In this document: one piece after another, positions 13,419 through 34,914 of the stretch | How positions within the stretch are numbered: the first letter of the stretch is position 1 | Layout: the number at the start of each line of letters is the position of its first letter | Source: Gemmataceae bacterium | GTDB lineage: Bacteria > Planctomycetota > Planctomycetia > Gemmatales > Gemmataceae | DNA length: 34,914 nucleotides | Assembly (NCBI GenBank): GCA_019747685.1 | Contig: JAIEQN010000776.1 | Coordinates: forward strand, 1 to 34,914 | Direction of reading: 5' to 3' | The notes under the pieces: model-generated | What the model saw: only the letters and a program-made list of their open reading frames with translations | What the model was told of the DNA's origin: nothing | Databases searched by the model: none | Position numbers and translations under genes: made by a program

Positions 13419-14477
13419 TCAAACGCTGTGGGGAACATTATTCGGCCCGCCCCGGCTCGCCCGCGGCCGCCGGCCGGGGCTCCAACCGGTGCCGACCAGC
13501 CCGAGGACGGCCGGCAAGACGGCCAGCACCCCGCACCCGGCCCCGACGCCCAGCAGGGCGTACTCCCGGGCCGCCCACCGGTCGGCGTCCTTCGGCCGGG
13601 TCCGCTCGTCGATCCGTGACACCAGCTCGGTGGTCAGGTGCTTGTCGTTGCCGTCGTGGTAGACGCCGTTGAGCCGGTTGGCGACCTGCCGGAGGGTGGA
13701 CACGTCCTGGCGGGTGGTGTGCCCGCCGAGCGACTTCCCGGCGGTCGGGTTGCCGACCCCGACGATCACCACGTTCGCCCCGATCGACGCCGGCATCTTC
13801 GGCATCCCGGTGGCCGGGACGGTGTCCCCGTCGGTGACCATCACCAGCACCGCCGACCCCGGGGGCCACGGCTTGGCGACCCGGGCGGCCTCCTCCAGCC
13901 CGGCGAACAGGTCCGTGTCGCCCGGCTTGAAGGCGTGCCGCAGGGGCAGGTCGGACAGGATGTTCCGGACCACCTCCCGGTCGACGGTGTCGACCACCAC
14001 CGGCTTGGCCTCCTTGGCGAACGCGACCACCGTGGTCTTGTACCGCTCGGCCTCGACCCGCTCGAAGAACGACTGGATCAGGTCGGCCGCCCGCTCCCGC
14101 CGGGGCTGCTTCCCCTCCCGCCCGGCGTCCTCCACCGTCATGCTCCGGGACACGTCCAGGACCAGGACGAGGTGGCGGTACTCGCCGGGCAGGACCTCGT
14201 TCAGCTTGTGGGCCTTCGGCGGGAGCAGGGCCAGCACGGTCAGCCCCCAGGCGGCGGCCCCGGCGGCGAGGGTGCGGAGGGCCGGGGCGACGGCCGCCAG
14301 AGCCAGCCACCGGCGGGACGGGCCGAACGCCAGCGGGGCCGCCCGGAGCACCCGCCGGTAGTGCAGCACCTCGGCGGCCGCGGCCAACAGCAGGACCACC
14401 CCGGCGGCCACGAACCCGGCCCCGACGGCGGACAGCCCGACGGGGTCGTAGGCCGGGAGTTTCGGAACCGGGATCAC
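13419..14477 (-). CDS. von Willebrand factor A domain membrane protein (BatA/BatB-like)
   Basis: GTG start 14477 (or 14480) overlapping the upstream stop; TM helices, MIDAS motif VLDVSRSMTVED, VMVTDGDTVPATG, C-terminal TM. The longer 13419..15506 ORF start is antisense-frame read-through of the upstream vWA gene. Confidence 0.85.
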   Translation of the reverse strand: MIPVPKLPAYDPVGLSAVGAGFVAAGVVLLLAAAAEVLHYRRVLRAAPLAFGPSRRWLALAAVAPALRTLAAGAAAWGLTVLALLPPKAHKLNEVLPGEYRHLVLVLDVSRSMTVEDAGREGKQPRRERAADLIQSFFERVEAERYKTTVVAFAKEAKPVVVDTVDREVVRNILSDLPLRHAFKPGDTDLFAGLEEAARVAKPWPPGSAVLVMVTDGDTVPATGMPKMPASIGANVVIVGVGNPTAGKSLGGHTTRQDVSTLRQVANRLNGVYHDGNDKHLTTELVSRIDERTRPKDADRWAAREYALLGVGAGCGVLAVLPAVLGLVGTGWSPGRRPRASRGGPNNVPHSV

Positions 14478-15424
14478 CACGGGGTGTACCTCAACCCGTA
14501 CAGGGCCAGTGTGCCGGCCAAGAGCAGCACCGCCCCGGCCAGGGCGAACGGCTCGTAGTAGTCCACCGTCTCGGCGATGGTCGGGGTGATCTTGGCCTGC
14601 TTCAGGGCGTCGATCTTCCGGAACACCGCCGGCAGGGCGGCCGGGTCGTCGGCCCGGAACGCCTCCCCGCCGGTCTGCCGGCAGATGGTGTAAATCTCGT
14701 CCTGCGGCTCCTCCCCGCCGACGATGATGGCGAACACGGTGATCCCGCCGGCGGTCAGCTTCTGGATGTAGTCGGCCTCGTTCCCCGGCAGGTCGAAGCT
14801 CTCCCCGTCGGAGACCAGGACGATCATCCGGTCCCCCTCCAGGGCCCGCCGGGCCAGCTCCTCCTTGCACCCGGTCAGGGCCTTGCCGATCAGCGTGCCC
14901 CAGAACGCCCGGGGGAGGTGGTCCGGCCGCATCAGCGGCGGGGCGCATTTGATCGCCGACGGGTCGGTGGTCAGCGGGGTCCAGTGGACGAAGTTGCCGC
15001 CGAAGAAGGTCAGCCCGAAGGCGTCCCCCTTGCGGTGGTCGAGGAACCGCTCGATCGCCTTCATCGAGGCGTCGTACCGGGTCCCGTCCCCGAACGCCTC
15101 GGTCATGCTGGGGGAGACGTCGACGGCGAACTGGATGTTGGTGACCGACCGCTTGTCCTGGGGCGGGCCGTTCCGCTTGGGGCCGGCCAGGACGCACACG
15201 GCGACGGCCAACAGCAGCGGCGCGATCGACTCGGCCAGCGACAGCGTCACCCACCACCACCAGCCCCCGCCGGCCCGGGCCCGGTCGAGCGGCAGGACCA
15301 CCCGGCGGGACGGCAGGAGCCACCGCCCGGCCCACACCCCGGCCAAGAGCAGCCCGGGCAGGAGCAGCCCGAACAGCACCAGCGTGTGGGTGAACGCCGG
15401 CCAGACCAGGGGGATGTCCTTCAT
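14474..15424 (-). CDS. von Willebrand factor A domain membrane protein (BatA-like)
   Basis: 316 aa from ATG 15424: N-terminal TMs, MIDAS FAVDVSPSMTEAFGDG, MIVLVSDGESFDLPG, C-terminal TM. ATGA overlap with the upstream gene stop. Confidence 0.9.
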   Translation of the reverse strand: MKDIPLVWPAFTHTLVLFGLLLPGLLLAGVWAGRWLLPSRRVVLPLDRARAGGGWWWWVTLSLAESIAPLLLAVAVCVLAGPKRNGPPQDKRSVTNIQFAVDVSPSMTEAFGDGTRYDASMKAIERFLDHRKGDAFGLTFFGGNFVHWTPLTTDPSAIKCAPPLMRPDHLPRAFWGTLIGKALTGCKEELARRALEGDRMIVLVSDGESFDLPGNEADYIQKLTAGGITVFAIIVGGEEPQDEIYTICRQTGGEAFRADDPAALPAVFRKIDALKQAKITPTIAETVDYYEPFALAGAVLLLAGTLALYGLRYTPW

Positions 15425-16281
15425 GCGCCGCCCCCCCGCTCGCCCCCGACCCGCTCCAGCGCGTCCGGCGGCAGGTCCCGGTACGGGGCCAAGAGCGCCC
15501 CGACATCGACCGGCCGGCCCGGCCCGGGCCGGTGCAGCCACTCTTCGAGCCGGTTCAACAGCGGCCCGGCGTCCGGGTGCCGGCGGAGGGCGGCCATCGC
15601 CTCGGCCGGCGGGTCCGCCTCCAGCTTCAGCCGCTTCCGCCAGTACGCCAGCAGCGACCGTTCCAGGTCGGCCAGCTGGCCGGGCGACAACCTCCCGCCC
15701 ACCGCCCCCTCGACCAGCGGCCGGAGCCGGTCGGCCAGGGTCAGCGGCCGGCCGGCGTCGGCGGCCACGGCCTTCGCCCGCCGGGGGAAGAAGAACGACA
15801 GGACGATGGCCGCCAGCCCAAGGCCCCAGAGGACGCCGAGGCCGATGACCAGGAGCCGGTAGCCGCCCAGCCGTGGGCCGGGGTCGACCCTCAGGTCGTT
15901 CGGCAGCACCGGCCCGGGCGACCGGACCGGGTTCACCCGCACCGGGAGCGGCGGCAGGTCGGCGGCCGACGACCCGTCCTTCCGCCGCAGGGAGTCCCGC
16001 AGGTCGTGGGTGCCGGGTTCGAGGCCGAAGTACTCGAGGTCGTACCGGAAGGCCGTCCCGTGCGGGTAGACGGCGGCGACCCGGACCACCACCGCGGCCT
16101 TCCGGTCGGTCAGCGGCCTGGCCTCCAGCTCGGCCCCGGGCAGCACCAGACTGGTGAACCGGCCGGTCATCCCGACGGCCGTTTCGGGCTGGGCGTGGGC
16201 GGCCGGGGGGCAAAGGGAAAAGCTGACAAGTAGGGCTAAAGCCCCGGCGCAGGTCCCGGCGGTCCGTGTCAGCCGGCCCAT
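15421..16281 (-). CDS. Secreted/membrane protein of the MoxR-vWA cluster (BatD-like position)
   Basis: 286 aa: signal MGRLTRTAGTCAGALALLVSFSLCPPAAHA, beta-rich ectodomain, TM YRLLVIGLGVLWGLGLAAIVLSFFF, cytoplasmic helical tail. Confidence 0.75.
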   Translation of the reverse strand: MGRLTRTAGTCAGALALLVSFSLCPPAAHAQPETAVGMTGRFTSLVLPGAELEARPLTDRKAAVVVRVAAVYPHGTAFRYDLEYFGLEPGTHDLRDSLRRKDGSSAADLPPLPVRVNPVRSPGPVLPNDLRVDPGPRLGGYRLLVIGLGVLWGLGLAAIVLSFFFPRRAKAVAADAGRPLTLADRLRPLVEGAVGGRLSPGQLADLERSLLAYWRKRLKLEADPPAEAMAALRRHPDAGPLLNRLEEWLHRPGPGRPVDVGALLAPYRDLPPDALERVGGERGGGA

Positions 16282-16320
16282 CAGCCCTCCCCCCGACGGC
16301 CCGCCCGGATTCTCATTGGT

Positions 16321-16362
16321 TTGGTTCGGCTACCCACACACCCTGCGGCCGAACCAATTATA
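16321..16362 (-). promoter_or_regulatory. 10-bp inverted repeat (TTGGTTCGGC/GCCGAACCAA) abutting a TATAAT hexamer on the minus strand
   Basis: Arms 16321-16330 and 16348-16357; TATAAT on the minus strand at 16362-16357. No good -35 seen. Confidence 0.3.
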
Positions 16363-16383
16363 CCCGTCAAACCGATCATCGAA

Positions 16384-17244
16384 CTAGCGACGCCCCCGGC
16401 CGAGTAAGTTCCGGCCCCGGAGGAAGTTGCGTAAGTCGGCGGCGAACGGCCGGTCGGTCCGGACCAGCAGGTGATCGACCCCGGCCCTCTTCAACTCGCG
16501 GGCCGTCGTCTCGGGATCGACCCACCGGCGGGCCGCCCGGGTGACGAACACCCGGCCCGTCTCGGCCTCCCCGGCTCGCAGGAACCCGGCACCCGGCAGC
16601 CCGATCTCGGCCGGGTCCTGCAACTGGATTACCGCGACATCGTGCCGCTGGGCCAGCAGCTTCAACGCCGGCACCGCCGCCCCGTCATGCAGGTCGCTCA
16701 GCACGAACACCAGGCACCGGCTCGGCAGGGACGGGGCCAGCTCCGTCACCCGCCGGCCGAGGGTCGTCGGCTCGTCGTACCGGAACCGGCGGAGGTCGTG
16801 CAGCCACTGCAACACCCGCGGCCGGGACAGGCTCGGGTCGACCCGGTAGTCCCGCCCGCCGACCCCGACCAGCCCGACCGGGCTGACCCGGTCGAGGCAG
16901 GCGAAGGCCAGCCCGCCGGCGATGTGGACGGCGGCCGCGTACTTACTCCGCTTGACCGACGATACCGTCATCGACGCCGACGTGTCGAGGAGCAGGTAGG
17001 CCGGGATTTGCCGGGGGGCCTCGTACTCCTTGACGAACACCTTCCCGGCCCGGGCCGTCACCCGCCAGTCGATCGACCGGACCGGGTCGCCGGGTAGGTA
17101 CTGCCGGGACTGGGCGTACTCGATCCCGGACCCGAGGAACGGGGACTTGTCGGTCCCGTAGTTCAGCGCGTCGGCCAGCTTCCGCACGGCGATGTGGAAC
17201 TGCCGGGCGTTCAGATGGTCGGCGGTGTCGAGGTAGCCTTCCAT
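16384..17244 (-). CDS. DUF58 domain protein (vWA-like, MoxR-associated)
   Basis: 286 aa from ATG 17244: MEGYLDTADHLNARQFHIAVRKLADALNYGTDKSPFLGSGIEYAQSRQYLPGDPVRSIDWRVTARAGKVFVKEYE...LLLDTSASMTVSS; typical DUF58 signatures. Confidence 0.93.
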   Translation of the reverse strand: MEGYLDTADHLNARQFHIAVRKLADALNYGTDKSPFLGSGIEYAQSRQYLPGDPVRSIDWRVTARAGKVFVKEYEAPRQIPAYLLLDTSASMTVSSVKRSKYAAAVHIAGGLAFACLDRVSPVGLVGVGGRDYRVDPSLSRPRVLQWLHDLRRFRYDEPTTLGRRVTELAPSLPSRCLVFVLSDLHDGAAVPALKLLAQRHDVAVIQLQDPAEIGLPGAGFLRAGEAETGRVFVTRAARRWVDPETTARELKRAGVDHLLVRTDRPFAADLRNFLRGRNLLGRGRR

Positions 17245-17266
17245 CCGGGCAGCCTTCAAGACCGGC

Positions 17267-17363
17267 CCGCTGATGACGCGGACTTCGACGCAGATCAAAC
17301 CGGATTGAAACCAATTGTTCCGATCCGATTTCATCTGCGGGCTTTGATCTGCGTCATCAGCGG
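17267..17363. repeat. 21-bp inverted repeat filling the moxR-DUF58 gap; left arm carries a 12-bp insertion
   Basis: Left CCGCTGATGACGC[GGACTTCGACGC]AGATCAAA (17267-17299); right TTTGATCTGCGTCATCAGCGG (17343-17363). The moxR stop codon (17357-17359) lies in the right arm. Confidence 0.93.
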
Positions 17364-18400
17364 ACCAATTCTTCCTTCCTCCGCTTCCCCCGGGTCAGGT
17401 CGTGGAGGATGTCCTGGAGGACGTCGTCGCCCCGCTTGCCGTCGGCCAGGGCCTCGTAGTTCAGCCGGACCCGGTGCAGGATCACGTCCGGGGCCAAGGC
17501 GTACAGGTCGTCGGGTACGACGTACCCGCGGCCGCGGATCAGCGCCCGGGCCTTGGCCGCCTTGATGAGGGCGATCCCGGCCCGCGGGCTGGCCCCTAGC
17601 TCCACGTCGGGGTGGCTGCGGGTCCGGGTGACGGCGTCGATGACGTGTTCCACGAACGTGTCGCTGACGTACACGTCGGCCGCCGCCTCCATCGCGGCGA
17701 CGAGGTCGTCGATGGTGCCGACCGGCTCGTCGGCCAGCACGTCGAACTCGGTCCGGGCGACCGCCCCGCCGCCCTCCCGCTTCACCCCCAGGGCCATGTT
17801 CCGCCGGAGGATTTCCTTCTCCTCATCGACCGTCGGGTAGACGAGCCGGTGGCGGAGCATGAACCGGTCGAGCTGGGCCTCCGGCAGCTCGAACGTCCCG
17901 GCCTGCTCGACCGGGTTCTGGGTGGCGATCACTAAAAACGGCGAGGGCAGCTTGAACGCCTCCTTGCCAATCGTCACCTTCCGCTCCTGCATGGCTTCGA
18001 GCAGGGCCGACTGCACCTTCGGGGCGGCCCGGTTGATCTCGTCGGCCAACAGCAGGTTCGTAAAGACCGGCCCCTTGTTCACCCGGAAGTCGTGCGTCTT
18101 CTGGTCGAGGATTTCCGACCCGAGGATGTCCGACGGCAGGAGGTCGATGGTGAACTGGATGCGGGCGAACTGGAGGTGGATCGACTTGGCCAGGCAGGAG
18201 ACGAGCAGCGTCTTGGCCAGCCCGGGGACGCCTTCGAGCAGCAGGTGGCCGCTGGTCAGCAGGGCGATCAGGATGCGCTCGACCACGACATCCTGGCCGA
18301 CGACGACGGTGCCGATCCGCTGGCGGACGCCGTTCAGGAAGGTGACGGTCGGGGTCGGGGCGGCGTGGCCGTTGGCCCCGTCGTCGGCGGGCAGGGTCAT
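17357..18400 (-). CDS. moxR: MoxR-family AAA+ ATPase
   Basis: 347 aa: GHLLLEGVPGLAKTLLVSCLA (Walker A), FARIQFTIDLLPSDILGSEI, LLADEINRAAPKVQSALLEAMQE (Walker B), FLVIATQNPVEQAGTFELPEAQLDRFM. Confidence 0.97.
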   Translation of the reverse strand: MTLPADDGANGHAAPTPTVTFLNGVRQRIGTVVVGQDVVVERILIALLTSGHLLLEGVPGLAKTLLVSCLAKSIHLQFARIQFTIDLLPSDILGSEILDQKTHDFRVNKGPVFTNLLLADEINRAAPKVQSALLEAMQERKVTIGKEAFKLPSPFLVIATQNPVEQAGTFELPEAQLDRFMLRHRLVYPTVDEEKEILRRNMALGVKREGGGAVARTEFDVLADEPVGTIDDLVAAMEAAADVYVSDTFVEHVIDAVTRTRSHPDVELGASPRAGIALIKAAKARALIRGRGYVVPDDLYALAPDVILHRVRLNYEALADGKRGDDVLQDILHDLTRGKRRKEELVR

Positions 18401-22069: not shown

Positions 22070-25000
22070 ATGTTTAAGCTCGCCCGGCGGAACCGGTGGA
22101 CCGGGTGGGCGGCCCGCAAGCCGTCCCTGCTCCGCCCCTTCCCCGTGCTCGGGCTGGAGCAACTGGAGGTCCGGGACACCCCGGCCACCTTCACCTGGAC
22201 CGGGGCCGGGGCCAACCAGCTCTGGTCGACCCCGGCCAACTGGCAGGGCGGGGTCGCCCCGACCGGCAACCCGCTGAACGTCGAGGACCTGGTGTTCCCG
22301 GCCGGCCCGACCCAGCGGGTGGCGGTCAACAACATCTCCGGCGGCATCTTCAACTCGATCACCTACGGGGCCGGCGGGTACACCCTGTCCGGGTCCCCGC
22401 TGACCCTCGGCGGGATCTCCGGGGTCAGCCAGAGCGGCAACCTGGTGGTCACCGCCGGGGCCGTCGACAACGCCCTGGCGATGAACGTCACCCTGGGGGC
22501 GGCGGCCGGCAACTTCCAGACCTTCTCGATCCTCGACTCGGCCGCCCTGACCGTCTCCGGCCGGCTGGCCGGGGTGGCCAACTCGACCCTGACCAAGGAC
22601 GGGGCCGGGACCCTCACCCTGACCAACGACAACAGCGGGTTCGCCGGGTTCTTCCGGCTGAACAACAACGCCGGCCAGCTCGTCATCACCAACCCGAACG
22701 CCCTGGGCACCACCTCGGCCCGGACGATCGTCGGGGCCGGGTCGTCGGTCCGGGTGCTGGTCGACGCGGCCGGGGCGATCACCGTCCGCGAGCCGATCAC
22801 CCTGAACGGCCTCGGGTTCGCCAACGACGGGGCCCTGTCCACCCTGTCCGGGACGACCAACTGGGACGCCCCGGTGGTGCTCGACAGCGACGCCGCCCTC
22901 GGGGCGTCGGCCGGGTCGGTGCTGAACGTGACCGGGGTGGTGAGCGACTCCGGGGCCGGGTTCGCCCTGTACAAGGAGGGGGCCGGGGAGGTCCGGCTGG
23001 CCAGCCCGACCGGGAACACCTACCGCCGCCAGACGATCGTCGACGACGGGGTGCTGACCGCCACCCACCCGCTGTCCCTCGGGGCCGGCGGCACCACCCT
23101 GAGCGGGACGATCGTCAACTACACCCTGACCCAGGCCGGGCAGCTCCGGCTGGCCGACCTGGCCCCGACCGGGGCCGACGGGAACCCCACCGGGTTCACC
23201 GTCCGGGACGAGTTCCTGACCATCAACGGCCCGGGCCGGGACTTCCTGGAGAACGACGGGGCCTTGGCCAACACCGTCGGGAACAACTACTGGGCCGGCC
23301 CGGTCACCCTCGGCAGCCCGGCCCCGAACGTGGCCGTGGCCGCCGCCGTCGGGGCGGCCGCCGGGACCACCCTGACCGTCAGCGGGGTGGTGTCGTCCCC
23401 GAACGGCCCGTACGCCCTGACCAAGGTGGACGCCGGGCGGGTCGTCCTGGACAACGCCAACACCTACACCGGGACCACCCTGGTCGCCCAGGGGGCCCTG
23501 ACCGCCCGGGACTCGACCGCCCTGGGGACGGTCGGCGGGTCGACCGGGGCCGAGGTCCAGGCCGCCCAGGTGATCGGCTCGCCCGGGACGTTCCAGATTT
23601 TCTTCAGCGGGGCCGGCACCATCCCCCTGCCGTTCAACGCCACCGCTCCGCAGGTCGAGGCCGCGGTTAACGCCCTGTCGACCGTCGTGTCGGCCGGCGG
23701 GAAGGTGTCGGTGACGGCCACCCGGATCGCCGGCGGGACCCAGTACAACATCATCTTCGGCGGGGCGTTCGTCGGGCTCAACCTGCCCCAGATCCAGGCC
23801 CTCGGGGCCGGGAACGTGGCCGCCGACACCATCACCGTCCGGGACGGCGGCGGGTCGGCCACCGCGGTCGTCGAGGGCGGGTCGCTGGAGCTGGAGGTGG
23901 AGGCCGGCGACCTGACCATCCCCCAGCGGGACGCCCACGGCCGGGACCTCGGGAACGACTCCGTCACCGGCGACCCGAACCGGCTCCGGGTGGCCGAGCC
24001 GATCACCATCTTCGGCCGCGGGCTGGACACGACCGACAACGGCCGGACCGGCGGGACCGGGGCCCTGCGGAGCGTCAGCGGGATCAACGTCACCACCGCC
24101 CCGATCGAGCTCGGGTACGCGAAGAACGTGGCCGACGCGATCGGGGTCGACCAGGACCGGCGGGCCGGCCACCCGACCCCGGACGCCACCTACTTCACCG
24201 CCGACTACAGCCTGACCACCCAGGGCGTGATCCTCGGCAACCTCGACCCCGAGCTGGACCGGGCGACCGAGTTCGTCAAGCGGGGCGAGGGCCACCTGAT
24301 CCTGCCGATCGCCAACACCTACCTCGGGACCACCCGGATCGAGCAGGGGTGGGCGACGGCCCGGAACGCGGCCTCCCTGGGCGGCCGGTTCGAGACGGTC
24401 GTCCGCCCGGCCCCGGCGGCCAACGTCAACCCGATCGGCCAGGGGGACACCGCCCAGCCGCCGACGGTGGTGAGCGCCGGGGCCGCCCTCCACCTCCGCC
24501 CGCTCACCCCGGGCACGAACCTCACCTTCCCCGAGAACCTGACCATCGCCGGGGTCGGCCCGACCCACCCGTACAGCTTCATCGACCGCCGCGGGGCGCT
24601 GATGAACCTGGACGGGAACAACACCTGGGCCGGGGACGTCGGGCTGGTCGGCCAGGCCGGGATCGGGGTCGAGCAGGTGATCGGCGGGTCCCGCAGCGAC
24701 CTAGTTGTCACCGGCACCCTCCGGGGCGGCCAGAACTCGTTCAACCTGTCCTCCAACGGCGGCCAGGCCGAGCAGGCGTTCCTGATCGACACCGGGGCCC
24801 CGGCCGGGGTCGTCCGGGTGACCTACAACTTCTTCACCCTCCGCGACCGGCTGACGGCCTACTACCCGCCCCGGGGCGAAGCCGGCAGCACCCGCATCCT
24901 CGACACCGGGTACATCAACAACGCCCCCGACCTGACGCCCCGGACCCTCGAGTTCCCGTTCGGCCCCGGGACCAGCAACCGGGTCGAGCTGGTCGTCAAC

Positions 25001-28000
25001 GAGGGCGGCAACCCGGACCCGTTCACCGTCTGGGAGCTGTCGGCCGAGGCCGAGGTGGATGGCGGGCTGATCAAGTTCGGGTCGAAGCGACTCTCCCTCC
25101 AGGGGGAGGGGACCTACGGCGGGGTCACGGAGGTCCGGGAGGGGACCCTGCGGTCCCAGAACGACACCGCCCTGGGGCGGAAGTTCAGCGGCACCGCCCG
25201 CACCCAGGGGACGTACACCCAGACGGCCACCGTCGTTTCCCCGGCCGCCGTGCTCGAGCTGGCCGGGAGCATCGACCGGCTCAACGGCGGGGTCGCCGCC
25301 GGCACCCAGGTGTTCTACGAGCAGCTCGTCCTGGACCGGCCCGGGCAGCAGGTGGCCGTCGCCGGCTCGACCGTCCCCGGGTTCACCGGGACGTTCACCC
25401 TGAGCTACCGCGGGCAGGTCACCCCGCCGCTGTCGATCACCGCCACCGCGGCCGACGTGGCCGCCGCCCTGAACGCCCTGTCCACCGTCCGGGCCGACTT
25501 CGCCTCCGACGGCGGGGCGACCGTCACCCGGACCGGGAACGTCTACACCGTGGTGTTCGGGAACACCCGGTCGGTCAGCGCCCCGCTGCTGGTGGCGACG
25601 GCCTCCGGCGGGGCCGAGGTGGCGGTCAGCGGCGGCCCGGCCGGGCTGGTCGTGTCGTCCGAGGACCACACCTGGCGGGGGGCCGTCACCCTCCGGGACG
25701 GCGCCCGGGTGGACGTCCGGACCCGGGCCCGGGTGTCGCTGCACGGGCCGATCGACGACGCCGTCAACCCGTCCCCGGCCGGGTCCGACCTGGCCAAGCG
25801 GGGGGCCGGCGAGCTGCTCCTGGCCGGGCCGAACACCTTCCGCGGGACGACCGCGATCGACGAGGGGGTGGTCACCGCCGCCAACTCGACCGCGTTCGGG
25901 GCGACGGCCGGCGGGACGGTGGTGGCCGACGGGGCCCAACTCCAGCTCCAGGGGAACCTGACCGTCGCCGGGGAGGCCCTGACCCTCCGCGGGACCGGGC
26001 CGGCGGCGGTGTCGGCGTTCGAGGACACCGTCCGGTGGGTGAACACCGGCCCCGGGCCGACCAACAACGGGCTGTCCGGGAACACCCTGCCGACCAGCGG
26101 GCGGGTGACCAGCGCGGTCGCCGACCCGTCCGACCCGAGCACCGTGTACGTGGCCACCGCCGGCGGCGGGGCCTGGAAGACGACCGACGGCGGGGTCACC
26201 TGGAACCCGCTGTTCGACCTCGACCCGGACGGGAACGGGCTGATCTACGGCGGGTCGTTCGCCGTCGCCCAGTCCGACCCCCGGGTGGTGTACTTCGCCA
26301 CCGGGGACACCAACGGGTACCCGACCGGGTCCGGGGTCCAGGGGCCGGCGGTCAACTACGCCGGCACCGGGGTGTACAAGTCGACCGACGCCGGCCGGAC
26401 CTGGACGGTCCTGACCACCACCGGCGGGGCCAACCCGCTCCGCGGGCAGGCGGTCAGCAAGATCATCGTCGACCCGGAGGTGGCCGACCGCATCTACGTG
26501 GCCAGCGGGACGAGCAATGTCCTGAACGCCGACCCGGCGGCCGTCCCCGGCGTCTGGCGGTACGACGGGGCCGACTGGTTCAACCTGACCGGGGGGCCGT
26601 CCCCGAACCGGCTGAGCGTCCCCGGGACGGGCGACTTCGCGGCCCCGCCGGCCGGGGTCGGGGCCCCGGAGAACGCCGGCCCGGACGACGACTACCGGAT
26701 CATGTTCCCGCAGACGAACGCCACCTGGAGCGACATCCAGCTGATCAAGCGGGGGTTCAGCCCGTTCACCGGGGCGAGCGAGTGGGTCCTGTACGCCGCC
26801 CTCGGGGAGTCGTTCCAGAAGTACTACCAGGGGCCGACCAGCCAGGGCATCTTCAACGCCGTCTACCGGACCGAGGACCCGGACTCGACCGGGGCCAACC
26901 CGACCTGGTGGCTGGGCACCGGGACGGTCTTCGTCCGGTCCCACACCACCGGCCCGGACATCCCCCAGCCGCTCCCCCCGCTCCCCCCGCCGACCCCGCC
27001 GGACCAGCGGGCCAACCCGTTCCCGGTCGGCCCGATCACCCCGCCGATCCCGTACATCCCGCCCGGCCGCAACGGCTGGATCAAGCTGGCCGGGACCCAG
27101 GACAACTACCTCCAGCCGACCGCCCGGTGGCCGCTCACCAAGAACCCGAACGAGGGGATCACCAACGACTTCATCTACGGGGTCATCAACCCCCACATCA
27201 CCGTGTACGCCTCTGTGGTGTGGCCGGACTACCAGGACCTGCGGGGCGAGCTGCGGGACATCCAGAAGACCGGGTGGGACGGCGGGATCGCCACCACCTG
27301 GCAGGCGACCGGGGCGGTCCCGGTCCGGCCGTTCGGCACCGCCACCTTCGACCCGCAGATCCCGGCCCCGCCGAACTCCCCGTACTACCGGAACATCGTC
27401 AAGGGGACCGGCCGGTACAACAACGCCCTGCTGGTCCAGTCGTCCACCCCGCTGATGGCCGCGGACAACGAGCCGGACGTGGTCTACCTGGCCGGCCGGG
27501 ACGACATCTTCGTCAGCACCAACGGCGGGCAGGCCTGGTCGGTCCTCCCGCCCGACCCGACCGGCAACAAGCCGGGCAACCAGTACCAGAGCCTGACCCG
27601 GGACTTCGCCGGCCGGCTGGTGATCGGGACCGACGGCGGGGTGTGGCGGTACGACCCGACCGTCGCCCCCGCCGACCGCCGGTACGTCAACCTGAACGGC
27701 GACCTGGCGGTCACCCAGCTGAACTCGGCCGACCCGCACCCGACCGACCTGAACCAGGCCCTGGCCGGGGCGACGGATAGCGGCACCCAGCGGTTCGACG
27801 GCGGGCTGGCCTGGGCCCGGCTGGACGACACCGCCGGGAGCAACACCGGGGTCGTCCGGTACGACCCGCGGAACCCGCTGGTGGCCTACGCCGCCCGGGA
27901 CGGCCAGCTCCGCAAGACGACCGACGGGGGGGCCACCTGGTTCACCCTCCGGAACGTCTCGACCGTCCCCCCGGACCTGAAGTTCGCCGACCTGTTCGAC

Positions 28001-31000
28001 CCGTTCAACCGGTCCTACGGGACGGCCCGGGTGTCCCCGGTCGGCCCCGGCGGGAACACCGGCCGGGTCGACCAGTACCAGCGGAACGAGGGGTCGAACT
28101 TCTTCCCCCTGGTGGTCGACCCGATCAACACCAGCCGGGTGCTGATCGGCAACCCGAACCCGGTGGTCGTCGGCGACCCGCTCGGCGGGGCCCCGGACGA
28201 CATCATCGCCAACAACCTGCTCGAGTCGTCCAACGGCGGGCTGACGTTCACCAACCTGAACGCCGGCATCACCGTCACCGCCATCGGGACGGCCACCTTC
28301 CAGGGCCGGTTCGCCCTCGACCCGGAGCCGAACGCGCTCGGGGCCTCCCCGCCCGGGTTCCCGAACGTCACCGACAAGGGGTCGAACACCTACGACCCGG
28401 ACACCATCTACGTCGCCGGGTACTTCCAGCAGGGGCTGACCCAGGCCAACCGCCGGGAGGAGCTGCGGGTCACCAAGGACCACGGCACCTCGTGGATCGT
28501 CCGGACCCCGCCGGGGGCCACCCCGACCGACCCGGCCCCGATCACCGACATCACCGTCGACCCGGCCAACCGGGACACGGTGTACGTCACCCGGAGCCGG
28601 CGGGTCGGGCAGCCCGGCGGCCGGGTCTACCGGTCGACCGACGCCGGCCGGAACTGGACCGACATCACCGGGAACGACGCGGACATGCAGGCCCCGGCCT
28701 ACGCCACCGCCGTCGACCCCCGGGACGGGACCCTGTACCTGGGCAACGAGCACGGCGTCTGGTCGCTGCGGAACGCGGCCGACACGACCTCGTACATCTG
28801 GGTCAAGTTCGGGGCCGGGATGCCCCGGGTGGCGGTCAAGGACCTGGTCCTGAACCAGACCCTGAACACCCTCACGGCCGCGACCAACGGCCGGGGCATG
28901 TTCCAGCTCCTGCTGACCGACTACCAGCCCAGCTCGGGCGCCCTGCGGGCCCTCAGCGGGGCGTCGGTGTGGACCGGGAACGTCACCCTGACCGGGGACA
29001 CCACGATCGGGGCGGCCGGCACCCAGCAGCTCCAGAACGGGATCGCCTCGGCCTCGGTCAACCTGATCGGCCGGGTGGCCGACGACACCCCCGGGGCCAA
29101 CCACGAGCTGCGGAAGATCGGGCTGGGCACCCTGATCCTGTCCGGGGCGAACACCTACGGCGGGCAGACCCTGGTGCAGGAGGGCGTCCTCCAGGTGAAC
29201 AACCCGCGGGCCCTCGGGGCGTTCGAGCCGGCCGCCACCGCCAACACGGTGGTGTCCGACGGGGCCGCCCTGGAGCTGCGGAGCGACCTGGAGGCCGAGC
29301 CGGTCACCGTCAACGGCCGCGGGTTCCCGTTCAACCAGCGGTTCACCGGGGCCCTGCGGAACGTCAGCAGCAACAACACCTACACCGGGACCCTGACCCT
29401 GGCGACGGACAGCACCATCGGGGTCGACTCCGGGACCAGCCTGACCATCGGCCGCAAGGCCGACCTGGTCGGGATCGGGACGATCACCGACGGGGCGGAG
29501 AACTTCGCCCTGGACAAGGAGGGGCCCGGGACCCTGATTCTGGCCGAGGCCAACACCTACGACGGCCTCACCCGGGTGGCCGCCGGGGCCCTCCAGGTGC
29601 AGGACGCCCTGGCCCTCGGCAGCACCGGGCTGGCCGGCGGCCCGGCCGACACCCGGGTGCTCGACGGGGCCCAGCTCCAGATCGCCCGGAACGCCTTCAC
29701 CGGCGACCCGACGGTGGTGGTCGACGAGCACCTGTTCCTGTCCGGCAGCGGGATCGACAAGACCGGGGCCCTGCTCAACGTCCACCCGGACGCCGACCCG
29801 GCCGGGGCGACGAACGTCTGGCGGGGGCCGGTCACCTTCAACCTCGACCCGAGCACCGCCCCGCCGACCGTCCCGTCCTCCCAGGTGTCGATCGGGGTGT
29901 CCGACCCGGCCGACACCCTGGTCATCGACGGGCCGATCGACCAGGTGAACAGCCAGGCGTCGTTCGGGCTGATCAAGGTCGGCCCCGGGCGGCTGACCCT
30001 GGCCCAGGCCAACGTCTACACCGGGGTGACCAACGTCGAGGCCGGGACCCTGACCGTCCGCGGCCCGGACGCCCTCGGGCCGGCGGTCTCGTCCGAGGTC
30101 CAGACGGTGGCGGTGGTCGGGAGCGTCGACCCGGCGACCGGGCTGCCGTACCAGTTCACCCTGTCGTTCAACGGGGACGCCACCGGGCTGCTCGACGCCT
30201 CGACCATCACCGCCGCGGTGGTCCGGAGCAAGCTCGGGGCCCTGCCATCGGTCGGCGGGACGGGCAACCTCATCGTGGCCGAGAGCCCGACCTCGAACGG
30301 GAAGACGTTCACCGTCACCTTCCGGAACGCCCTGGGCAACCAGGACCTGCCGACGATCGTGGCCGGGAGCATCTCCCCGGGGCTGTCGGTCAACGTGACC
30401 GAGGCCCAGCGGGGCGGGCTCGGGACCGTGGTGTCGGCCGGGGCCACCCTGGAGATCGAGGGCGACACCGGCGGCGGGTTCACCGTCAGCGAGGTGCTGG
30501 CCCTGAACGGGGACGGGGTGGGGGCCGGCGGGGCGCTGCGGAACGCCTCCGGGGCCAACACCTACGCCGGGCCGATCACCCTGGAGACGGACGCCAGCAT
30601 CGGGGCGGCCGCCGACAGCACCCTGTCGGTCACCGGGACGATCCGGGACCCGAACCCGGCCCCGGTCCCGGCCGCCCGGCTGCGGAAGGCCGGGGAGGGC
30701 GTGGTCGAGCTGCGGACGGCCAACCCGTACGCCGGGCTGACGGTGGTGGACGAGGGCGTGCTGCGGGTGTTCAACCCGAGCAGCCTGGGCAACAGCGGGC
30801 CGGAGGTCCAGCTCGTCCAGGTGACCGGGTCGGCCGGGACGTTCACCCTGATCTTCGACGGCCAGCCCACCACCCCGCTGTTGGTCACCGCGACCGCGGC
30901 GGACGTGGCGGCGGCCCTGAACGCCCTGCCGAACATCGGCGGGGTCGGCGGGTCGGTGGCCGTCACCCGGACCGGGTCCGCCGGCAACTTCTTCTACGAG

Positions 31001-34000
31001 GTCACCTTCGGCGGGACCCTGGCCGGGGCCGACCAGCCGCAACTGACGGCCACCGCCACCGGGGCGGCCAACGCCTTCATCAGCACCACCCGGGAGGGCC
31101 CGGGGGCGACCGTGGTGAACACCGGGGCCACCCTCCAGGTGGCCGGCGGGATCACCATGAACCGGGAGGCCGTGACCATCAACGGCCCCGGGTTCAACGG
31201 CCAGGGGGCCCTGAACAGCTTCCTCGGCAACCTCAACGTCTGGGCCGTCCCGCTCACCCTGGGCAGCGACGCCTCGATCGGGACCACCACCGTCGTCCAG
31301 GTGTTCTCGTTCACCGCCCCGATTACCGACAACGGGCTCGGGTTCGGGCTGGACATCGTCGGCCCGGGGACCGTCTCCTACGACGGCACCGCCGACAACA
31401 CCTACTCCGGGACCACCACCGTCCGGGCCGGCACCCTGCGGCTAAACCAGGCCGCCGGGATCGCCGTCAACGGCGACCTGGTGGTCGGCGACGGGGCCGC
31501 CCCGGCGGTCGTCCGGGCCACCCGGGACGACCAGATCGCCGACACCTCCGACGTGGCGGTCAACGCCACCGGGACCTACGACCTGAACGGCCGGGCCGAC
31601 ACCATCGCCGACCTGTCCGTCACCGGCGGGTCGGTGCTGACCGGGGCCGGCGGCAGCCTGACCGCCGCCGACGTGACGATGGCGGGCGGGACCATCACCG
31701 CCGGGGCCAACGCCACCCTGACCGTCCGGGACGTGGACATGACCGGCGGGACGATCGCCGCCGGGGCGAACGCCGTCGTCACCACCCGGGACATCCGGAC
31801 CGCCGGCGGGGCGATCACCCTGGCCGCCGGGTCCGAGCTGAACCTGACCGGGGACATCACCGGGACCTCGACGGCGGCCGGGTCGGCGTCGATCACCGGC
31901 CCGGGCACCCTCGACCTGAACGGGGCGGTCCGGACGGTGATCGTGACCGACGGCCCGCAGCCGGAGGACCTGCGGATCACCGCCGTCCCGACGGCGGCCG
32001 CCGGCGAGGGGCTGGTCAAGGACGGGGCCGGCCGGCTGGTCCTGGCCCCGACCGCCCCGACCGCGGTGCCGGTCCGGGTGGTGGACGGCGACCTCCAGGC
32101 CGACGGGGATGTCGGCCCGAAGACCCTGGACGGCCCGAACGCCAGCCTGAGCGGGGTCGGGTCGGTCGACTCGGTCGGCGGGGCGTCCGGCCCGGCCGTC
32201 GGGACGGTCAGCCCGGGGAACAACTGGCGGCTCAACCCGGCCGGCGTCCTGCGGGTCACCGGGGACGTGGTCTGGGGGGCGGCGACGACGTACTTCGTGG
32301 ACCTGGACGCCTCGTCCCACCCGACCCCGCCGGCCGGGGCGGACTACGACCAGCTCCGGGCGACGGGCACCGTCACCCTCGGCGGGGCGACCCTGTCCGG
32401 GTCGTTCGGCCCCGGGGTGCTGCTGGGCGACCGGTTCACCATCATCACCGCCGGGTCGGTGGTCGGCCGGTTCGCCGAGCCGTTCGGCCCGAACGTGGTG
32501 TTCATCGGGGGCCAGAAGTTCCGGGTGGTGTACACCGCCACCACGGTCGAGCTGGAGAAGGTCAAGGCGGACGTGGCGGTCACGGTGGCGGCGTCCCGGA
32601 ACCCGTCCACCCTGCGGGAGCCGGTGACGTTCACCGCCACCGTGACCCCGGAGCCGGGGGCCGGGCCGGTCCCGACCGACGACACGGTGACGTTCACCGT
32701 GGACGGGGTGAGCTACGGGCCGTTCATGCTGGACGCGAGCGGCCGGGCGACCTTCACCACCACCGCCGTCCCGGGCGGGTTCCTGGCCGGCGGGACCCAC
32801 ACCGTCTCGGCCGCGTTCAGCGGGGACGCCCTGAACTTCAACGCCGGGACCTCCCCGGTCCTGACCCAGGTGGTCGAGGTGCCGGCGATCGCCCCGCTGG
32901 TCGGGTCGCCGGCCCTGATCTCGCCGAACAACAGCCCGGGCGTCCAGGACGCCTTCACCGCCGCCACCACCGTCACCCAGGAGCGGGCCCTGACCGACTG
33001 GACGGTGGTGGTCAAGAACTCGGCCGGCGATGTCGTCCGGACGTTCAGCGAGCGGGTCCCCCGCAAGCCGTCGCCGGGGGCGGACAACTCGTTCGCCATC
33101 GCCGTCACCTGGGACGGCCGGGACCAGACCGGGGCGTTCGTCCCGGACGGGGACTACACCCTGACCGCGTCGTTCCAGGACGAGTTCGGGAACACGGCGG
33201 CGGCCGCCCCGATCACCGTCCGGGTGGACAGCACCTCCCCGGACTCGACCCCGGTGACCAGCCCGGTCCCGGTGATCGCCCCGCTGCCGGTCGGGCTGCC
33301 GGCCGGGACGGCCAGCATGGTCCCGACCACCACCCGGCTGACCGGGACGGTCGGGGACGAGAACCTGGACCACTGGACGGTCCGGGTGCTGGACGCCGGC
33401 GGGGCCGAGGTCCGGCGGTTCGAGGGGGCGGCCGGGGCGACGGCCGTGGACATCACCTGGGACGGGCGGGACTCGGCCGGCAACGTCGTCCCGGACGGGG
33501 TCTACTCGCTGGTCATCGAGGTGCTCGACCGGGCCGGGAACGTCACCCGCCCGGCGGCCGCCACGGTGGTCGTGCTCGACCGCCCGCCGTCGATCGGGGT
33601 CAGCTCGAACGGCCCGACCACCTACGGCCAGAGCATCACCCTGACGGCGGCCGTCACCCCGCTCGTCCCGGGGCTGGCCGGGCTGCTGGAGGGGGACGAG
33701 GTCCGGTTCTTCCAGGGCACCACCCTGCTGGGGACCGGGACGCTCGTCCTGGTGGGCGGCGAGTACCGGGCGTCGGTCACCGTGCCGACGTTCAACGCCG
33801 GGACGTACTCGGACATCACCGCCGCGTACCCCGGGTCGGAGTTCTTCCTGCCCGGCACGTCGGCCCCGTTCACCCACGTGGTCGTCCCGGCCGTGCTGAG
33901 CGTCCAGGCCGACGACGCGACCAAGGTGTACGGCCAGCCGGTCCCGCCGCTGACCTTCCGGGTGAGCGGGCTGGTCAACGGGGACACCGAGGCCGAGGTC

Positions 34001-34914
34001 GTGTCCGGCCTGCCCGGGACGGCGGCGACCGCCGCCAGCCCGGTCGGGGCGTACCCGATCACCCAGGGGACGCTGACCGCCAACCCGAACTACACGGTCA
34101 CGTTCACCCCGGGCACCCTGACCGTCACCCCGGCCCCGCTGACGGTCCGGGTGAACGACGCGACCAAGGTGTTCAACCGGCCGAACCCGCCGTTCACCGC
34201 CGCCTTCGAGGGACTGCTGCTGGGCGACACCCCGGCGGTGGTCCAGAACCTGAACCTGGTGTCGACGGCCACCCAGTCGAGCAAGGTCGGGACCTACCCG
34301 ATCACCGCCCGGGGGACGCCGACGGCCCTGAACTACACCATCACGGTGATCCCGGGGACCCTGACCGTCACCCCGATCCCGTCGGAGATCGACGTCGGGA
34401 CCGGGCCGGGGGCGACCGCGACCGTCACCCGGTACGACCCGGACGGCCGGCCGTTCGGCACCCTGACCCCGTTCGGGTCGTTCGCCGGCGGGGTGCGGAC
34501 GGCGACCGCCGACCTGAACGGGGACGGGATCGAGGACGTGGTGATGGGGACCGGGCCGGGGACCCAGGCCCGGGTGCTGGTGATCGACGGGAACACCGAC
34601 GAGGTGCTGTACTCGGCCTTCCCGTTCGGGGACTTCACCGGCGGGGTGTTCGTGGCCACCGGGGACCTGACCGGGGACGGCCGGGCCGACCTGGTGGTCA
34701 CCCCGGACGAGGGCGGCGGGCCGCGGGTGCAGATCATCCGGGGCGGGGACTTCGCCCCGGTGGTCAGCTTCTTCGGCATCCAGGACCCGAACTTCCGGGG
34801 CGGGGTGCGGGCGGCCGTCGGCGACATCAACGCCGACGGGTTCGCCGACCTGGCGGTGGCGGCCGGGTTCGGGGGCGGCCCGCGGGTCGCCCTGTGGGAC
34901 GGGAAGGCCCTGGC
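22070..34914 (+). CDS. Giant multidomain extracellular-type protein, C-terminus beyond the window (at least 4281 codons)
   Basis: ATG 22070 (MFKLARRNRWTGWAARKPSLLRPFPVLGLEQLEVRDTPATFTWTGAG...). Frame verified by hand at 24302, 26942, 30002, 33002 and 34862, with no stop noticed. About ten NTYxGxTxVxxGxLxVxxxxALG motifs (autotransporter-associated beta-strand repeat, TIGR02601-like). N-terminal LExLExRxxPA motif resembles planctomycete LEPR-XLL-type starts. Not in the ORF track because it lacks an in-window stop. Confidence 0.92.
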   Translation, partial: MFKLARRNRWTGWAARKPSLLRPFPVLGLEQLEVRDTPATFTWTGAGANQLWSTPANWQGGVAPTGNPLNVEDLVFPAGPTQRVAVNNISGGIFNSITYGAGGYTLSGSPLTLGGISGVSQSGNLVVTAGAVDNALAMNVTLGAAAGNFQTFSILDSAALTVSGRLAGVANSTLTKDGAGTLTLTNDNSGFAGFFRLNNNAGQLVITNPNALGTTSARTIVGAGSSVRVLVDAAGAITVREPITLNGLGFANDGALSTLSGTTNWDAPVVLDSDAALGASAGSVLNVTGVVSDSGAGFALYKEGAGEVRLASPTGNTYRRQTIVDDGVLTATHPLSLGAGGTTLSGTIVNYTLTQAGQLRLADLAPTGADGNPTGFTVRDEFLTINGPGRDFLENDGALANTVGNNYWAGPVTLGSPAPNVAVAAAVGAAAGTTLTVSGVVSSPNGPYALTKVDAGRVVLDNANTYTGTTLVAQGALTARDSTALGTVGGSTGAEVQAAQVIGSPGTFQIFFSGAGTIPLPFNATAPQVEAAVNALSTVVSAGGKVSVTATRIAGGTQYNIIFGGAFVGLNLPQIQALGAGNVAADTITVRDGGGSATAVVEGGSLELEVEAGDLTIPQRDAHGRDLGNDSVTGDPNRLRVAEPITIFGRGLDTTDNGRTGGTGALRSVSGINVTTAPIELGYAKNVADAIGVDQDRRAGHPTPDATYFTADYSLTTQGVILGNLDPELDRATEFVKRGEGHLILPIANTYLGTTRIEQGWATARNAASLGGRFETVVRPAPAANVNPIGQGDTAQPPTVVSAGAALHLRPLTPGTNLTFPENLTIAGVGPTHPYSFIDRRGALMNLDGNNTWAGDVGLVGQAGIGVEQVIGGSRSDLVVTGTLRGGQNSFNLSSNGGQAEQAFLIDTGAPAGVVRVTYNFFTLRDRLTAYYPPRGEAGSTRILDTGYINNAPDLTPRTLEFPFGPGTSNRVELVVNEGGNPDPFTVWELSAEAEVDGGLIKFGSKRLSLQGEGTYGGVTEVREGTLRSQNDTALGRKFSGTARTQGTYTQTATVVSPAAVLELAGSIDRLNGGVAAGTQVFYEQLVLDRPGQQVAVAGSTVPGFTGTFTLSYRGQVTPPLSITATAADVAAALNALSTVRADFASDGGATVTRTGNVYTVVFGNTRSVSAPLLVATASGGAEVAVSGGPAGLVVSSEDHTWRGAVTLRDGARVDVRTRARVSLHGPIDDAVNPSPAGSDLAKRGAGELLLAGPNTFRGTTAIDEGVVTAANSTAFGATAGGTVVADGAQLQLQGNLTVAGEALTLRGTGPAAVSAFEDTVRWVNTGPGPTNNGLSGNTLPTSGRVTSAVADPSDPSTVYVATAGGGAWKTTDGGVTWNPLFDLDPDGNGLIYGGSFAVAQSDPRVVYFATGDTNGYPTGSGVQGPAVNYAGTGVYKSTDAGRTWTVLTTTGGANPLRGQAVSKIIVDPEVADRIYVASGTSNVLNADPAAVPGVWRYDGADWFNLTGGPSPNRLSVPGTGDFAAPPAGVGAPENAGPDDDYRIMFPQTNATWSDIQLIKRGFSPFTGASEWVLYAALGESFQKYYQGPTSQGIFNAVYRTEDPDSTGANPTWWLGTGTVFVRSHTTGPDIPQPLPPLPPPTPPDQRANPFPVGPITPPIPYIPPGRNGWIKLAGTQDNYLQPTARWPLTKNPNEGITNDFIYGVINPHITVYASVVWPDYQDLRGELRDIQKTGWDGGIATTWQATGAVPVRPFGTATFDPQIPAPPNSPYYRNIVKGTGRYNNALLVQSSTPLMAADNEPDVVYLAGRDDIFVSTNGGQAWSVLPPDPTGNKPGNQYQSLTRDFAGRLVIGTDGGVWRYDPTVAPADRRYVNLNGDLAVTQLNSADPHPTDLNQALAGATDSGTQRFDGGLAWARLDDTAGSNTGVVRYDPRNPLVAYAARDGQLRKTTDGGATWFTLRNVSTVPPDLKFADLFDPFNRSYGTARVSPVGPGGNTGRVDQYQRNEGSNFFPLVVDPINTSRVLIGNPNPVVVGDPLGGAPDDIIANNLLESSNGGLTFTNLNAGITVTAIGTATFQGRFALDPEPNALGASPPGFPNVTDKGSNTYDPDTIYVAGYFQQGLTQANRREELRVTKDHGTSWIVRTPPGATPTDPAPITDITVDPANRDTVYVTRSRRVGQPGGRVYRSTDAGRNWTDITGNDADMQAPAYATAVDPRDGTLYLGNEHGVWSLRNAADTTSYIWVKFGAGMPRVAVKDLVLNQTLNTLTAATNGRGMFQLLLTDYQPSSGALRALSGASVWTGNVTLTGDTTIGAAGTQQLQNGIASASVNLIGRVADDTPGANHELRKIGLGTLILSGANTYGGQTLVQEGVLQVNNPRALGAFEPAATANTVVSDGAALELRSDLEAEPVTVNGRGFPFNQRFTGALRNVSSNNTYTGTLTLATDSTIGVDSGTSLTIGRKADLVGIGTITDGAENFALDKEGPGTLILAEANTYDGLTRVAAGALQVQDALALGSTGLAGGPADTRVLDGAQLQIARNAFTGDPTVVVDEHLFLSGSGIDKTGALLNVHPDADPAGATNVWRGPVTFNLDPSTAPPTVPSSQVSIGVSDPADTLVIDGPIDQVNSQASFGLIKVGPGRLTLAQANVYTGVTNVEAGTLTVRGPDALGPAVSSEVQTVAVVGSVDPATGLPYQFTLSFNGDATGLLDASTITAAVVRSKLGALPSVGGTGNLIVAESPTSNGKTFTVTFRNALGNQDLPTIVAGSISPGLSVNVTEAQRGGLGTVVSAGATLEIEGDTGGGFTVSEVLALNGDGVGAGGALRNASGANTYAGPITLETDASIGAAADSTLSVTGTIRDPNPAPVPAARLRKAGEGVVELRTANPYAGLTVVDEGVLRVFNPSSLGNSGPEVQLVQVTGSAGTFTLIFDGQPTTPLLVTATAADVAAALNALPNIGGVGGSVAVTRTGSAGNFFYEVTFGGTLAGADQPQLTATATGAANAFISTTREGPGATVVNTGATLQVAGGITMNREAVTINGPGFNGQGALNSFLGNLNVWAVPLTLGSDASIGTTTVVQVFSFTAPITDNGLGFGLDIVGPGTVSYDGTADNTYSGTTTVRAGTLRLNQAAGIAVNGDLVVGDGAAPAVVRATRDDQIADTSDVAVNATGTYDLNGRADTIADLSVTGGSVLTGAGGSLTAADVTMAGGTITAGANATLTVRDVDMTGGTIAAGANAVVTTRDIRTAGGAITLAAGSELNLTGDITGTSTAAGSASITGPGTLDLNGAVRTVIVTDGPQPEDLRITAVPTAAAGEGLVKDGAGRLVLAPTAPTAVPVRVVDGDLQADGDVGPKTLDGPNASLSGVGSVDSVGGASGPAVGTVSPGNNWRLNPAGVLRVTGDVVWGAATTYFVDLDASSHPTPPAGADYDQLRATGTVTLGGATLSGSFGPGVLLGDRFTIITAGSVVGRFAEPFGPNVVFIGGQKFRVVYTATTVELEKVKADVAVTVAASRNPSTLREPVTFTATVTPEPGAGPVPTDDTVTFTVDGVSYGPFMLDASGRATFTTTAVPGGFLAGGTHTVSAAFSGDALNFNAGTSPVLTQVVEVPAIAPLVGSPALISPNNSPGVQDAFTAATTVTQERALTDWTVVVKNSAGDVVRTFSERVPRKPSPGADNSFAIAVTWDGRDQTGAFVPDGDYTLTASFQDEFGNTAAAAPITVRVDSTSPDSTPVTSPVPVIAPLPVGLPAGTASMVPTTTRLTGTVGDENLDHWTVRVLDAGGAEVRRFEGAAGATAVDITWDGRDSAGNVVPDGVYSLVIEVLDRAGNVTRPAAATVVVLDRPPSIGVSSNGPTTYGQSITLTAAVTPLVPGLAGLLEGDEVRFFQGTTLLGTGTLVLVGGEYRASVTVPTFNAGTYSDITAAYPGSEFFLPGTSAPFTHVVVPAVLSVQADDATKVYGQPVPPLTFRVSGLVNGDTEAEVVSGLPGTAATAASPVGAYPITQGTLTANPNYTVTFTPGTLTVTPAPLTVRVNDATKVFNRPNPPFTAAFEGLLLGDTPAVVQNLNLVSTATQSSKVGTYPITARGTPTALNYTITVIPGTLTVTPIPSEIDVGTGPGATATVTRYDPDGRPFGTLTPFGSFAGGVRTATADLNGDGIEDVVMGTGPGTQARVLVIDGNTDEVLYSAFPFGDFTGGVFVATGDLTGDGRADLVVTPDEGGGPRVQIIRGGDFAPVVSFFGIQDPNFRGGVRAAVGDINADGFADLAVAAGFGGGPRVALWDGKAL
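26018..28936 (+). other. Asp-box/BNR (sortilin/sialidase-like) beta-propeller domain within the giant CDS
   Basis: Asp-box motifs TTDGGVTWNPL, STDAGRTWT, STNGGQAWSVL, TTDGGATWFTL, SSNGGLTFTNL, TKDHGTSWIV, STDAGRNWTDI, with interleaved VDPxxxxxVYVA motifs. Confidence 0.85.
31610..31849 (+). repeat. Four ungapped 20-residue (60-nt) tandem repeats within the giant CDS
   Basis: DLSVTGGSVLTGAGGSLTAA / DVTMAGGTITAGANATLTVR / DVDMTGGTIAAGANAVVTTR / DIRTAGGAITLAAGSELNLT. Confidence 0.85.
32563..33890 (+). other. Ig-like and FlgD-like Ig domains within the giant CDS
   Basis: Ig-like ...STLREPVTFTATVTPEPGAG...GTHTVSAAFSGDALNFNAGTSP; two FlgD-like segments WDGRDQTGAFVPDGDYTLTASFQDEFGN and WDGRDSAGNVVPDGVYSLVIEVLDRAGN; second Ig-like SSNGPTTYGQSITLTAAVTP. 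Confidence 0.75.
33895..34375 (+). other. Two consecutive MBG-like domains within the giant CDS
   Basis: LSVQADDATKVYGQPVPPLTFRVSGLVNGDT...PVGAYPITQGTLTANPNYTVTFTPGTLTVTPA and LTVRVNDATKVFNRPNPPFTAAFEGLLLGDT...KVGTYPITARGTPTALNYTITVIPGTLTVTPI. Confidence 0.85.
34400..34914 (+). other. FG-GAP/VCBS-like calcium-binding repeats at the visible C-terminal end of the giant CDS
   Basis: FAGGVRTATADLNGDGIEDVVMGTGPG, FTGGVFVATGDLTGDGRADLVVTPDEGGGP, FRGGVRAAVGDINADGFADLAVAAGFGGGP: DxNxDGxxD loops. Confidence 0.85.

Follow-up and report, generated by a model that had tools for sequence, protein, structure and literature searches.

The giant protein encoded at the end of a Gemmataceae contig has a β-solenoid core, and one rung of that core is split by a long stretch predicted to fold as two β-propellers. 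The evidence best supports an in-frame domain insertion into a single rung. The fuller reading, which is favored here with moderate confidence, is that one insertion event has produced a surface fiber displaying laterally a double propeller that is probably non-hydrolytic and would serve to bind a ligand.

The window (the whole stretch of DNA analysed, 34,914 nucleotides) is one entire contig, at the end of which the 3' part of the giant frame is lost:

22070..34912, + strand: giant protein gene, at least 4281 aa, open frame leaving the contig end

The N-terminus of the protein is of the LExLExRxTPA type (its N-terminal segments are given no family by NCBIfam); ~10 PATR/TIGR02601 β-solenoid repeats with the inserted propeller make up the solenoid, and Ig-like (Big_3_5, FlgD_ig), MBG_2 and FG-GAP repeats lie C-terminal to it. 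Membership of the PATR family is clear: TIGR02601 scores 218.9 bits over 11 stretches in the NCBIfam scan (cut-off 19.85), and PF12951 scores 159.6 bits over 10 stretches in the Pfam scan. A classical signal peptide is not obvious by eye, and a Pfam scan of L040, a homologue that is complete (4487 aa, stop-terminated), returned neither a C-terminal outer-membrane β-barrel nor a known anchor. Nei-Gojobori dN/dS against L040, the nearest orthologue, is ~0.7-0.9 everywhere and uninterpretable, probably on account of skewed base composition. The neighboring genes (MoxR-type ATPase, DUF58, VWA, β-CASP hydrolase, nitrite/sulphite reductase) are on the opposite strand and give no functional clue; the MoxR-type AAA ATPase/DUF58/VWA cluster occupies 13419-18400 (- strand), and PF20030 (bpMoxR) also matches its ATPase.

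The interrupted rung is the sixth solenoid unit, arranged as follows:

25955..26017, + strand: left part of the rung, NLTVAGEALTLRGTGPAAVSA (aa 1296-1316; modelled strand 98-102)
26018..28936, + strand: inserted double Asp-box β-propeller, GH74-like fold by prediction (aa 1317-2289)
28937..29218, + strand: right part of the rung, GALRALSG...NNPRALG (aa 2290-2383)

In translation the rung breaks after LTLRGTGPAAVSA (26017) and restarts with GALRALSGASVW (28937), with 973 residues between them in one frame; a PATR/TIGR02601 match at 29108-29200 falls within the right part. Translation and motif scan thus agree with the first-pass annotation, which had placed the split at 26017/28937 with at least seven Asp boxes in between. 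Two HMMs of the solenoid unit were built, one from 11 uninterrupted repeats (the interrupted rung was left out) and one from 124 uninterrupted units. When the insert is deleted in silico, as had been proposed, the repeat HMM runs across the junction in one alignment (model positions 2-102). With the first HMM the joined halves score 83.0 bits, the right half alone 71.8 and the left half alone 7.6; the corresponding scores with the second are 88.7, 75.1 and 8.2. Insert-internal 27-mers set before the right half all score below the true join (maximum 84.1, mean 77.6), and repeat pieces taken from elsewhere in the giant protein match or beat the true left half. The gain in bits is supportive and not decisive, because other repeat fragments also add bits; the unbroken, in-register alignment of the joined halves is the stronger point. 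The halves are complementary, the left one stopping near model position 17 and the right one beginning near 15-20, their join amounts to one unit, and intact sister units are present in the same protein, all of which bears out the earlier claim of an in-frame insertion into one rung.

It is conceivable, if unlikely, that the protein is instead made of two solenoid blocks joined like beads on a string by the propeller, the left half closing the first block as a C-terminal cap and the right half opening the second as an N-terminal cap. Joining gains only ~13 bits, we estimate at ~1/10 the chance that two breakpoints fall within five residues of each other in a 102-residue unit, no orthologue with an empty rung was found, and conservation of the site counts as only one event, since all the insertions probably go back to one origin (see below). 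Against separate blocks stand the register of the halves in one unbroken alignment, the coincidence of the break with a length-variable loop, and a strand order that equals that of intact rungs. The loop is at model positions 15-20 and is 3 to 18 residues long in the 124 uninterrupted units. The AF2 model of the interrupted rung has a strand at LTL (98-102, model numbering), a loop, and a strand at ALR (1086-1088), and the same strand-loop-strand order is found in modelled intact rungs. The position of the break in a variable loop, together with this strand order, places the insertion in a turn of the rung and not in a strand, and across it the folded solenoid would be continuous. The first-pass annotation had a single propeller inside a strand: the propeller stands, while it looks double and sits in an inter-strand loop.

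The insert contains seven Asp boxes (S/T-x-D/N-x-G-x-x-W/F), at 26180, 26381, 27515, 27917, 28226, 28472 and 28634, and the remainder of the 4281 residues has none; shuffled versions of the insert contain 0.03 on average and at most 2 in 1000 shuffles. These motifs, with a predicted fold that matches propellers, mark the insert as an Asp-box β-propeller. Its AF2 model (mean pLDDT 75.7, pTM 0.76, 20 sequences in the alignment) has long low-confidence loops. In a Foldseek search of the PDB the top 25 matches to this model are all GH74 xyloglucanases (E 1e-21 to 4e-15; TM 0.40-0.61 by target length), and GH74 also ranks first in a profile search (E 1e-23). GH74 enzymes consist of two seven-bladed propellers in tandem, with 4+5 Asp boxes (PMC2716378). 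On the model, the insert would likewise be a tandem double propeller of GH74-like fold; the low-confidence loops and an rmsd to GH74 near 10 Å leave the way the two propellers are turned toward each other provisional.

Having the GH74 fold, as predicted, and being a GH74 enzyme are separate questions, and on the second the alignments point the other way:

26159..26161, + strand: Ala1364 in TAGGGAW, aligned with the GH74 catalytic Asp (structure/profile alignments)

At the GH74 position aligning to Ala1364, 2cn2 and 6mgj have Asp; 2cn3 and 6mgl have Ala there (the title of 6mgl gives D60A). The mutated Asp, numbered D70 in C. thermocellum Xgh74A and D60 in PoGH74, is taken here to be the catalytic one. 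In relatives of the insert this column holds Ala in 19/20, Ser in 1/20 and Asp in 0/20. At the second GH74 Asp site, where the alignment is less certain, ~8/20 rows have Asp, the window protein among them; the others have N, S, T, G or A. GH74 catalysis is unlikely because the catalytic Asp is lost. An insert that works as a glycoside hydrolase on the fiber, through residues other than the catalytic ones of GH74, is improbable: similarity in fold and profile to GH74, the Asp retained at the second site in the window protein and some relatives, and a weak, below-cut-off match to the F510_1955 'glycosylhydrolase' family speak for it, but the position of the catalytic base is never Asp, the second site varies, and Vps10 receptors, which are also Asp-box propellers, are not enzymes (PMC2716378). 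The propeller had been proposed to be catalytic or binding; of these, binding is preferred.

Relatives were found by phmmer with --max (plain phmmer missed several, probably because of its composition filter). A paralogue in the same genome (contig C1170) has a propeller inserted at the same place, and so do ~20 other giants from 16 Gemmataceae genomes of 10 genera, among 95 genomes of the family searched; some of the 16 hold two or three such solenoid-propeller giants. In all of these the right half resumes around model position 10-22, and every full-length member found in the family carries the insert. In a maximum-likelihood tree 21 inserted propellers are separated by a single branch (support 100/99) from 18 others. 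Distances between propellers correlate with those between the flanking solenoid segments (Mantel r 0.75 for the left segment and 0.56 for the right; none of 2000 permutations reached these values). Because the solenoid-borne propellers group together to the exclusion of free-standing ones, the insertion is likely to be ancient and to have happened only once, probably in the ancestor of a Gemmataceae protein family, with vertical descent and duplication thereafter.

Homologues with and without the insertion had been called for, and the search was partly successful: inserted relatives were found in the family, and propeller-free giants built on this repeat are present in other planctomycetes of the class (L106 to L112, L116), while searches of family and class yielded no orthologue in which the interrupted rung is empty. 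A single-contig genome of the same genus (G088) was considered as an empty site and rejected; its locus L102, near C1:4984156, retains only a fragment of a related solenoid, in a 357-aa frame with an apparently out-of-frame upstream part, and looks decayed. Outside the family, the propeller matches of the class-wide search (E up to 1e-18) come from frames 927 to 2027 aa long and, judging from these sizes, solenoid-inserted propellers are likely absent there. Two giants of ~3800 aa (L062 and L063, on G024:C11 and G022:C38) contain a related propeller and have no solenoid unit matches; these are a different host protein. An open frame of 12608 residues with a solenoid match is present in another planctomycete family (G131:C11:40403).

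A small domain of ~90 residues recurs in the giant protein:

23552..23815, + strand: copy 1, phage tail-tip-cage-like (aa 495-582)
25370..25615, + strand: copy 2, in the preceding rung region (aa 1101-1182)
30095..30382, + strand: copy 3, between rungs (aa 2676-2771)
30803..31066, + strand: copy 4, between rungs (aa 2912-2999)

Its consensus is EVQxVxVxGxxGTFTLxFxGxTTxPL...VTFGGxLAGxxxPxL. An HMM of the domain has 159 matches in 27 frames, 21 of them inside propellers; these counts are somewhat inflated, as one gene is represented twice (by L040 and L041) and some matches are partial. Propellers in which it is nested are those of L009, L043, L044, L047, L050, L060 and L061. A phmmer search of the PDB matches the domain to gp23, the tail tip cage protein of mycobacteriophage Bxb1 (E 2.9e-13), and PHROG tail proteins match it weakly; tblastn at 1e-5 found no match in the phage collection, and when the giant protein was scanned with Pfam and NCBIfam no family was listed for this domain. 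Copy 2 may occupy the equivalent loop of the rung before the interrupted one, but this placement is at best weakly supported: the HMM does not back it in the window protein and backs it just slightly in the paralogue. A wider reading, which is tentative and on present evidence rather doubtful, is of Gemmataceae-specific giant surface fibers in which a catalytically dead polysaccharidase-like double propeller acts as a glycan receptor, with three nested levels of insertion. Were it true, one protein family would hold, in relatives of the window protein, phage-tail-related modules within a propeller within a solenoid rung.

In the proposed arrangement PATR-type units of ~105 residues would form the β-solenoid core of a giant, probably secreted surface fiber, and the GH74-like double propeller would have entered once, at the turn that joins two strands in the sixth unit. 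Because the insertion is in a turn of the rung, it leaves the solenoid able to run on, and the propeller would project sideways. Lacking the GH74 catalytic Asp, the propeller is most probably a side domain that binds a ligand, perhaps a glycan, on an adhesin-like fiber. The combination of conserved blades and a lost catalytic position points to binding: blade motifs and many Gly, Trp and Asp positions are invariant in 20 divergent propeller sequences. A mere structural spacer that binds nothing and lengthens or stiffens the protein seems a poor alternative. Its loops, which differ in length and tolerate additional insertions, would suit that part, and no known ligand-binding motif is present, but the propeller is kept in all full-length members found and its blade motifs are invariant (a property that would fit a structural need too). 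We infer surface location, secretion route, binding role and ligand alike; no barrel or known anchor having been found in the complete homologue, the first of these rests on domain company. In β-helix autotransporters such as Hbp, side domains stand out from the stem, and exchanging them need not block secretion (PMC3521207). By analogy with these, display of the propeller on the side of a long fiber is likely.

This is a clear case, traceable in a tree, of a folded domain of nearly a thousand residues inserted in a single solenoid rung and retained in a bacterial lineage, and the uninterrupted units of the same protein allow direct comparison with the interrupted one. It suggests how very large surface proteins may be put together in planctomycetes, with modules nested in loops that tolerate insertion, and a GH74-like propeller predicted to be non-hydrolytic offers a directly testable ligand question. 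Literature searches did not find this architecture, a solenoid giant with an inserted propeller, described.

Among known systems, Vps10/sortilin is a ten-bladed propeller followed by a 10CC module; the PF15902 match covers 76 of 446 positions at 43 bits, sortilin reaches only E 5e-4 in the profile search, and no 10CC module was noticed. Autotransporter passengers (Hbp, IgA1 protease, EspP) resemble the giant in having a β-helix stem with folded side domains (PMC3521207). The profile search also reaches the IcsA passenger (E 2.4e-7); Foldseek of the solenoid model against the PDB gave no match at E<0.001, and autotransporter passengers are among its weak ones. Unlike them, the giant is much larger, is made of PATR-type units and has a double propeller as side domain, and no barrel was found in the complete homologue L040, which sets it apart from type V autotransporters. 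PATR/TIGR02601 giants of other planctomycetes (L106, L109, L110, L111, L116) share the repeat unit and a similar N-terminal region, and differ in having no propeller. Conversely, stand-alone Gemmataceae Asp-box propellers (L064, L066, L069) are homologous to the insert, but are solenoid-free and fall outside the clade of inserted propellers. The best structural and profile matches remain the tandem Asp-box propellers of GH74 (Xgh74A, 2cn2/2cn3; P. odorifer PoGH74, 6mgj/6mgl); in contrast to these enzymes with their catalytic Asp, the insert and its relatives have Ala or Ser in its place, and the insert has 973 residues, includes a proline-rich stretch and is seated in a solenoid.
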